Of a stretch of DNA of 64,000 bases, positions 12,734 to 47,391 are shown in pieces. This DNA comes from Carnobacterium gallinarum DSM 4847 (GTDB lineage: Bacteria; Bacillota; Bacilli; Lactobacillales; Carnobacteriaceae): NCBI RefSeq assembly GCF_000744375.1, contig NZ_JQLU01000005.1, positions 2,279,496 through 2,343,495 on the forward strand, given 5' to 3'. The translations under genes and the position numbers were made by a program. A model generated the notes under the pieces. It was not told the DNA's origin and did no database searches. It saw only the letters and a list, made by a program, of their open reading frames with translations. Each line of letters starts with the position of its first letter. Within the stretch, counting starts at the first letter, position 1.

Positions 12734-13165
12734 TCAGTAATCTACTGGTGAAAGGTGACCTAATTTCGTTAATATTCGTTTGTTATTCCAAAACTTAATG
12801 TAATTCTTAACAATATCTATTGCAATGTTATTAGAACCTATTGGTTCTTTGTTGAGATAGAATGTTTCAGACTTTAGTGAGGAATGAAACGATTCTATTG
12901 GGACGTTATCTGAAGGGAGTTCCTTTGCGGGACATACTTCGGATGACGTTTTTTTGTTGAGCAACTTTACAAAATTCCCTTGAAGAATATGTTGCACCTT
13001 GATCACTGTGCAACATAGCTACTTCTGGGAACTCTTCAATTTGGTTTAAAGTATCCAAGGCAAGCTTAGTATCTGGATGATTTGAAATTTGAAACGCAAT
13101 AATTTCACTATTATAGGTATCCATAATAGTCGATAAATAAAGCCTAGATTTACCAAAAGAAAGGA
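12734..13165 (-). pseudogene. IS3-family transposase remnant (OrfB, C-terminal part, frameshifted)
   Basis: Minus-strand codons from about 13165 read SFGKSRLYLSTIMDTYNSEI, then LHSDQGATYSSREF and QQKNVIRSMSRKGTP, and after a frame change near 12920 continue DNVPIESFHSSLKSE and end in LGHLSPVDY. This is the integrase-core (rve) region of an IS3 OrfB transposase, with the second catalytic Asp (HSDQG) and the Glu (ESFHSSLKSE) visible. The N-terminal half, OrfA and the left end are missing, and the frameshift splits the rest. It is a dead remnant marking a mobile-DNA-rich zone just after ssrA. Confidence 0.85.
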
Positions 13166-46221: not shown

Positions 46222-46853
46222 GGAATGGCAGATAGTTCAGTTTCTTATTATCGTGGTAGGTAACTGTAACTACAGAGCTTTTATTGGAGAATTATTTAGA
46301 GCTAGTGGATACTTTGTTAGGCTTTACTGGGGGGCCAGTCAGCCAGCCGGGTACGGTAGGGAATCAATGAAACTTCTTTATGAAGGAGTTGGGGTTTGAA
46401 ATAGAATGATTTATATTTGTTTTTACTTATTCATTGCTAGGTCATTTTGAAAAACTGAATCATTTATCATTTTTATATGTTTATTATTCACGAGCCTTTA
46501 TTTATTTAAACCCGTCAACTAACATCGTTTCTATGAAATTAAATAGTTATCACTTAATTTCAGCTGTATTTCTTATAGTACATGGTATTCGGGTTAAGAT
46601 GATGATGTGAAGTACCCTAGTTCAAAGGGGAACAGTTTAATTTTTATGCCTGTATACTTTTGACGATTGTTCAGTTTTTAAAGATATTACAGCTTTTCAG
46701 TACGATGCCCAATTACACTTTTTCTGAAATGAAACAAGGGCTTAGCTTCGTTCAAGATCCATTTATCCATAGTTTAGGATGATTTTATCTACGAGTTAAT
46801 TAGTTATGCTACAGTAAGCTTGTTACTAAATATTTTATAAGGAGCATGTGTAC
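46222..46853. other. 632-base region upstream of the bacteriocin gene
   Basis: No intact gene. It holds an open-frame remnant (46410-46610) and the bacteriocin promoter region. TTCAGT elements at 46670-46675 and 46696-46701 (26 bases apart) lie where direct repeats for a quorum-sensing response regulator would be expected, but I cannot confirm the consensus. Confidence 0.5.
46410..46610 (+). pseudogene. Possible membrane protein remnant
   Basis: A 66-codon open frame without start codon reads FIFVFTYSLLGHFEKLNHLS, FLYVYYSRAFIYLNPSTNIV, SMKLNSYHLISAVFLIVHGI and RVKMMM. The composition looks like real membrane protein sequence rather than chance, but it follows a TGA directly and has no ribosome binding site. 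It may be the tail of a lost gene of the bacteriocin locus. Confidence 0.35.
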
Positions 46854-47039
46854 ATGAAAAGCGTTAAAGAACTAAATAAAAAAGAAATGCAACAAATTAA
46901 TGGTGGAGCTACCTCTTATGGCAATGGTGTTTATTGTAACAAAAAGAAATGTTGGGTAAACAAGGCAGAAAACAAACAAGCTATTGCTGGAATAGTTATC
47001 GGTGGATGGGCTTCTAGTTTAGCAGGAATGGGACATTAA
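46854..47039 (+). CDS. cbnBM1: Class IIa bacteriocin, carnobacteriocin BM1 variant
   Basis: A 61-residue prepeptide. Leader [18 protein letters not shown] ends in the double-Gly cut site for an ABC peptidase exporter. The 43-residue mature peptide begins [16 protein letters not shown], with the pediocin box YGNGV and two Cys (10 and 15) for a disulfide, and ends in the helical hairpin [18 protein letters not shown]. Compared with carnobacteriocin BM1 as I remember it, it differs at positions 2 (Thr for Ile), 13 (Lys for Glu) and 27 (Ala for Thr). It permeabilises target cells, including Listeria, through the mannose PTS. Start ATG 46854 follows AAGGAG by nine bases. Confidence 0.95.
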
Positions 47040-47053
47040 AGAGGTATCTAGTC

Positions 47054-47320
47054 ATGATAAAAGATGAAAAAATAAATAAAATCCATGTTTTAGTTAAAAG
47101 TGCGCTTGATAATACGGATGTTAAGAATGATAAAAAACTTTCTTTACTTCTTATGAGAATACAAGAAACATCAATTAATGGAGAACTATTTTACGATTAT
47201 AAAAAGGAATTACAACCAGCTATTAGTATGTACTCTATTCAACATAACTTTCGGGTTCCTGACGATCTAGTAAAACTGTTAGCATTAGTTCAAACCCCTA
47301 AAGCTTGGTCAGGATTTTAA
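47054..47320 (+). CDS. cbiBM1: Carnobacteriocin BM1 immunity protein
   Basis: An 88-residue soluble, helical protein of the class IIa immunity family (EntA_Immun type): KINKIHVLVKSALDNTDVKN, LSLLLMRIQETSINGELFYD and a C-terminal PDDLVKLLALVQTPKAWSGF. It protects the producer by binding the mannose-PTS/bacteriocin complex from inside. It lies 14 bases after the bacteriocin stop and is followed by a terminator, so the two form one operon. Length and position match the known cbiBM1 gene. Confidence 0.92.
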   Translation: MIKDEKINKIHVLVKSALDNTDVKNDKKLSLLLMRIQETSINGELFYDYKKELQPAISMYSIQHNFRVPDDLVKLLALVQTPKAWSGF

Positions 47321-47348
47321 CTTTAGTTCCAGATGAGTTAAAATCATA

Positions 47349-47391
47349 AAAAATAAGGAATGCTGTTAAATCAGCGTTCCTTATTTTTTTA
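47349..47391 (+). terminator. Terminator of the bacteriocin operon
   Basis: AAAAATAAGGAATGCTG pairs with CAGCGTTCCTTATTTTT, T-rich tail. Confidence 0.9.

Follow-up and report, generated by a model that had tools for sequence, protein, structure and literature searches.

The BM1-type gene pair and its surroundings

The 64,000-nucleotide stretch of DNA that we analyzed (the window) carries on its plus strand an allele of the carnobacteriocin BM1 gene, cbnBM1 (46854..47039, from ATG 46854 to TAA 47039), and a cbiBM1-type immunity gene (47054..47320, from ATG 47054 to TAA 47320). The first gene codes for a predicted class IIa (pediocin-like) precursor of 61 amino acids, with the YGNGV motif and the two N-terminal cysteines that are hallmarks of the class and a match to the Pfam family Bacteriocin_II (E 5.8e-19; 68.3 bits against a cut-off of 24.5). 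The precursor has an 18-amino acid leader (46854-46907, +) of the double-glycine type, which ends in QINGG and matches TIGR01847 (bacteriocin_sig) at 20.3 bits (cut-off 15.7), and a mature peptide of 43 amino acids (46908-47036, +). A predicted ribosome binding site (AAGGAG; 46839..46844, +) lies 9 nt 5' of the ATG. The immunity gene starts 14 nt after the stop codon of the cbnBM1 allele, in the arrangement typical of BM1. Its 88-amino acid product matches the Sakacin A immunity factor over residues 5-88 (E 6.7e-22); no Pfam family was assigned to it at E 0.001, and EntA_Immun appeared at E 0.13 only.

Downstream of the pair is an intrinsic terminator-like hairpin (47348..47389, +) with 18-nt arms, a 6-nt loop and a terminal T run. 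It has a fold z of -7.9 and is absent from the list produced by a consensus terminator scanner. Near the locus, no Rfam family reached its gathering score; four sub-gathering matches, all over the terminator, were judged to be chance. Elsewhere in the window (12818-12915, +), Rfam matched the Listeria sRNA rli23 at 81.7 bits, just after the tmRNA and antisense to minus-strand frames of an apparently broken transposase of the IS3 type, the IS3 label being our own reading.

The upstream neighbor of the pair encodes a 572-amino acid LRR protein, and the downstream neighbors, on the opposite strand, encode a tautomerase-family protein and a DeoR-type regulator. Further downstream on the plus strand are genes for an aldehyde dehydrogenase, a KduI/IolB-family protein, a PfkB kinase and a TPP enzyme, which presumably form an inositol-catabolism operon. 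Neither the open reading frames nor the protein domains around the locus revealed an exporter, accessory protein, inducer or kinase/regulator gene of the bacteriocin type adjoining the pair, as the first-pass annotation had observed. Its conclusion that production needs functions encoded elsewhere is also supported; this dependence has long been published for BM1 (PMC1634752, PMC2040187) and is therefore no peculiarity of the window.

Indeed, the BM1 gene (synonyms B1, piscicocin V1b and carnocin CP51) is described as chromosomal, with a 61-residue precursor and a 43-residue mature peptide, and as requiring the carnobacteriocin B2 plasmid, pCP40, for activation and export (PMC2040187). BM1 was reported in 26 of 29 C. 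maltaromaticum strains, as the sole bacteriocin gene in seven named strains and with the immunity gene present in all carriers (PMC9504619). C. maltaromaticum CM22 is reported to have the BM1 gene with its product undetected (PMC12634766). In two of three bog isolates BM1, together with its immunity gene, was the only bacteriocin structural gene detected (PMC10883799). The orphan state of the BM1 pair is, in these reports, the norm.

A CbnR-type promoter box

Upstream of the gene pair we identified a CbnR-type regulatory box (46750..46781, +) with the paired repeats expected of CbnR-regulated promoters, GTTCAAGATC (46750-46759) and GTTTAGGATG (46772-46781), separated by a 12-bp spacer. The published promoters PS, PB and PBM1 each have two 10-bp repeats that are 12 bp apart, and the sensor kinase and regulator CbnK/CbnR are reported to be necessary and sufficient for the CS-dependent activation of PBM1 (PMC1634752). 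A -10-like element, TATGCTACAGT (46805..46815, +), follows the box, with its TATG 23 bp after repeat 2. We compared these features with the promoters on two C. maltaromaticum plasmids that carry the B2 locus, LMA_pa and pL21581-1 (L011, L012), where cbnS was located by its peptide; PX is our name for the promoter divergent from PS. PS, PX and PB each have a TATG 23 bp past repeat 2, with -10-like counterparts at equal distance (TATGCCATACT in PS, TATGGTATAGT in PX and TATGATATAGT in PB), and the geometry of the window box is that of PS and PX of LMA_pa and pL21581-1.

A matrix built from PS, PX and PB of LMA_pa ranked the window box first among 127,880 positions of the window, at 28.1 bits; the next site in the window scored 17.0 bits and the best site in 30 shuffled windows 19.1. 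We also searched with a 17-N box pattern that has no mismatches to PS and PX of both plasmids and three to PB. At two mismatches or fewer, the pattern matched the 4.04-Mb genome once, at the window site, and each plasmid twice; the reversed control pattern also matched the genome once, and four of 100 shuffled windows had a match to the box pattern. One letter of the pattern (Y) was relaxed after the window box had been seen, and the strict PS/PX pattern has one mismatch there. We also chose the register of the repeats visually while looking at the window site. For both reasons the matrix is a cleaner test than the pattern, although it too is not blind.

The mature peptide and its relatives

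We aligned the mature peptide to the BM1 sequence printed in PMC5471241 for two C. maltaromaticum strains given as 100% BM1. The alignment bears out the earlier reading of the peptide as a BM1 variant with Thr2, Lys13 and Ala27: it differs from the printed sequence by I2T (codon ACC, 46911-46913, +), E13K (AAG, 46944-46946, +) and T27A (GCT, 46986-46988, +) and is identical at the remaining 40 of the 43 residues, which makes the gene a BM1 allele whose peptide is not BM1 itself. Strings from the window peptide were absent from the literature searched by full text, and BM1 strings were found there in PMC5471241 only.

The first-pass annotation had placed Lys13 between the two cysteines, proposed that it adds positive charge and assigned Ala27 to the helix. 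Position 13 does lie between Cys10 and Cys15, and the computed net charge at pH 7 increases from +1.9 in BM1 to +3.9 in the triple variant (pI 8.8 to 9.5). In a low-confidence AlphaFold2 model of the single sequence (mean pLDDT 62), residue 13 falls in the turn that joins strands 8-11 and 14-17, and residue 27 belongs to a helix (19-39). The sakacin P mutants 44K and T20K, as cited in PMC3236453, illustrate that a higher net charge can raise potency. By analogy, a modest effect of the extra positive charge on the potency of the window allele is plausible.

To place the three residues in the wider family, we fetched nine relative loci around plasmid matches and counted the six that yielded full peptides. 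We left out L051, where the frame breaks near residue 19, and the enterocin P-like genes L054 and L055 from E. faecium plasmids, whose class IIa signature reads YDNG rather than YGNG. Both of the latter have R2, S13 and A27, so their inclusion would not help the residues of BM1. The second class IIa gene of pEK4S (L050), intact and with Q13, was excluded for a C-terminal half of another type. At position 13 of the six relatives, the curvacin A-type peptide has K, three E. faecalis peptides have Q and two E. faecium peptides have S. Ala27 is found in four of the six, the other two having I, and Thr2 in a single one, an Enterococcus faecalis peptide, the remaining five having R. None of the six intact plasmid relatives has I2, E13 or T27. 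Furthermore, the window peptide is at least as close as BM1 to each of them (29, 35, 34, 32, 32 and 29 identities versus 28, 33, 33, 31, 31 and 29). The window residues thus recur among relatives and those of BM1 do not, which brings the window allele nearer to the family pattern than BM1. These counts argue against a special innovation at the three sites; that the published BM1 is the derived form is only suggestive with so few and short sequences (n = 6).

The closely related mature peptide and immunity genes on Enterococcus plasmids (L049, L050, L052, L053 and L056) come with long, hydrophobic signal-peptide-like leaders that replace the Gly-Gly type. The DNA similarity between the window and one of these plasmids, E. 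faecalis LR962333, begins at the mature part, as if leaders had been exchanged.

Regulators and exporters in the genome

The genome (4,041,428 bases in 5 contigs) has one class IIa gene, that of the window. The first-pass annotation had recommended a search for cbnKRTD, which returned no CbnD and only distant relatives of CbnT and CbnR, so that no complete system of the carnobacteriocin B2 type was found in the genome. No homolog of CbnD was detected at E 0.01, a threshold at which both control plasmids matched. Two C39 exporters are 30% and 23% identical to CbnT, and the best pair among six LytTR proteins is about 34% identical to CbnR. Two kinase/LytTR-regulator pairs (L021 and L022) distantly resemble CbnK/CbnR, and a scan for Gly-Gly peptides found no inducer-like peptide at either one. 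The genome may be incomplete or have lost a plasmid.

We also noted a small open reading frame with a Gly-Gly leader (mature peptide TCWHWNCSVNGF...) directly before a C39 peptide-cleavage exporter (L017, 6546-14303; C5:1246545-1254302 in the same genome). The frame had no match to Pfam or NCBIfam families, and the exporter is followed by genes for a lipoprotein, two permease-like proteins and a membrane-fusion-like protein. L017 is a possible uncharacterized bacteriocin cluster.

Upstream divergence and distribution

The DNA upstream of the gene pair differs from that of C. maltaromaticum LV17B as represented by the primers given in PMC1634752. Primer PcbnBM1-r matches the window just 5' of the ATG with mismatches at 6 of 26 positions, and the best window match of PcbnBM1-f (7 of 25 mismatched) is 416 bp before the ATG, compared to a fragment of about 0.2 kb in LV17B. 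Because of these mismatches and the three changed residues out of 43, the window allele appears to belong to a lineage distinct from that of LV17B and perhaps to a sister species. The latter is possible because BM1 was reported in C. gallinarum MT44, in addition to 85% of C. maltaromaticum genomes (PMC7409045).

An imperfect 16-nt inverted repeat with arms 210 nt apart (46444-46685) lies upstream of the promoter, and the DNA around it may be longer than in LV17B. We considered an insertion or mobile element from this repeat and the PcbnBM1-f distance; the stretch is single-copy in the genome, so a repeated element is unsupported.

Among 18 genomes of the family (its own included), three others had partial matches only (49-50% identical). 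The immunity and LRR proteins had no match in contigs of other genomes once the near relatives of the window were excluded, which says little. Viral contigs had no match for the locus, nor did phages for the immunity protein.

Proposed role of the locus and alternatives

The operon is a known one and stands here as an orphan, as it usually does; the allele is real and intact and was not found in the literature searched. Very probably it is a chromosomal cbnBM1-cbiBM1 allele of a Carnobacterium of the C. maltaromaticum lineage, the genus being deduced from the identity to BM1. It is likely silent as long as no B2 (pCP40)-type plasmid is present, and its differences from BM1 very probably reflect tolerated lineage divergence. 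The sequence comparisons suggest an ortholog of BM1 in a divergent lineage. If the pair works as described for LV17B, it would be transcribed only when quorum sensing of the CbnK/CbnR type acts on the repeats at 46750-46781. The precursor would then be cut after its Gly-Gly and leave the cell through a transporter of the CbnT/CbnD type, the mature peptide would kill sensitive relatives via the mannose PTS, and the 88-amino acid immunity protein would shield the producer. Until a B2 (pCP40)-type plasmid arrives, the bacteriocin would remain silent and the immunity uninduced; a silent state is the most likely one given that the genome has no close copies of the regulator and exporter. The three residue differences would represent lineage divergence within the range tolerated by the family.

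Could the substitutions instead have been selected? Lys13, together with Thr2 and Ala27, might give a functionally altered BM1 with shifted potency or target range, the latter suggested by the first-pass annotation. The computed gain of two charges, the higher binding and potency that added lysines conferred on sakacin P (PMC3236453) and the positions of residue 13 in the N-terminal sheet region and residue 27 in the helix of the low-confidence model are consistent with this putative selection, which we nevertheless regard as improbable, since each residue is natural in relatives (K13 and T2 in one of six, A27 in four) and I2, E13 and T27 occur in none of them. Even less probable is that a resident non-B2 system drives and exports BM1. 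Exporter and kinase/regulator parts do exist in the genome, and the L021/L022 pairs or the L017 exporter could conceivably serve BM1. However, their identity to CbnT and CbnR is only 30-34%, the Gly-Gly scan yielded no inducer-like peptide at L021 or L022, the genome has no second CbnR-type box, and activation and export of BM1 in LV17B are reported to depend on pCP40 (PMC2040187).

Another explanation, unlikely though less so than the previous two, is that the locus is kept for immunity against BM1-producing neighbors, with the structural gene as a passenger. A similar idea was put forward for partial pediocin operons in PMC5471241, and it would fit the immunity gene accompanying BM1 in every carrier reported in PMC9504619. 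Yet the structural gene is intact, with the class IIa hallmarks, and the inducible box has been kept; furthermore, immunity would depend on that same promoter, and cells in which it is not induced would have little protection. We tentatively consider a further possibility, that the BM1 pair is a chromosomal 'receiver' retained by selection for a quorum signal encoded on a plasmid, an obligate passenger, with the window allele as the older form and published BM1 as derived. We arrive at it because the box keeps the repeat spacing of PS/PX and the -10 distance, whereas the non-coding DNA close by has diverged from that of LV17B. If so, BM1 would extend the killing spectrum of whichever B2-type plasmid enters the cell.

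Our preferred reading, a plasmid-dependent BM1 allele of a divergent lineage, would change little, adding another allele of a food-protection peptide that is already known and a further example of a chromosomal bacteriocin gene apparently dependent on plasmid signaling and export genes. The natural triple substitution could also help to learn which residues of BM1 matter for its potency.

Comparison with known systems

The closest known system is BM1 of C. maltaromaticum LV17B, which in its published description shares with the window the 61- and 43-amino acid lengths, the chromosomal cbnBM1-cbiBM1 pair, the dependence on outside regulation and export, and the promoter box. The window differs from it by I2T, E13K and T27A and by upstream DNA that departs from the LV17B primers. 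BM1.2, a variant reported earlier, carries Ala in place of Gly at position 60 of the precursor (PMC9504619) and is, like the window's, a natural BM1 allele; the window keeps Gly60 and is altered at three other sites. Alignment with known BM1 variants, a check that the first-pass annotation had proposed, separates the window allele from both BM1 and BM1.2.

Curvacin A/sakacin A is likewise a class IIa bacteriocin with K13, a Gly-Gly leader and a homologous immunity protein. Unlike the window pair, the curvacin plasmid locus has its own kinase, regulator and transporter, and the curvacin A peptide is identical to that of the window at 29 of 43 aligned positions. The peptide of the Enterococcus faecalis plasmid LR962333 (L049) starts with A1-T2, has A27, is identical at 35 of 43 positions and is encoded in a gene pair of the same kind, but it carries a long hydrophobic signal-peptide-like leader, whereas the window peptide has a Gly-Gly leader.
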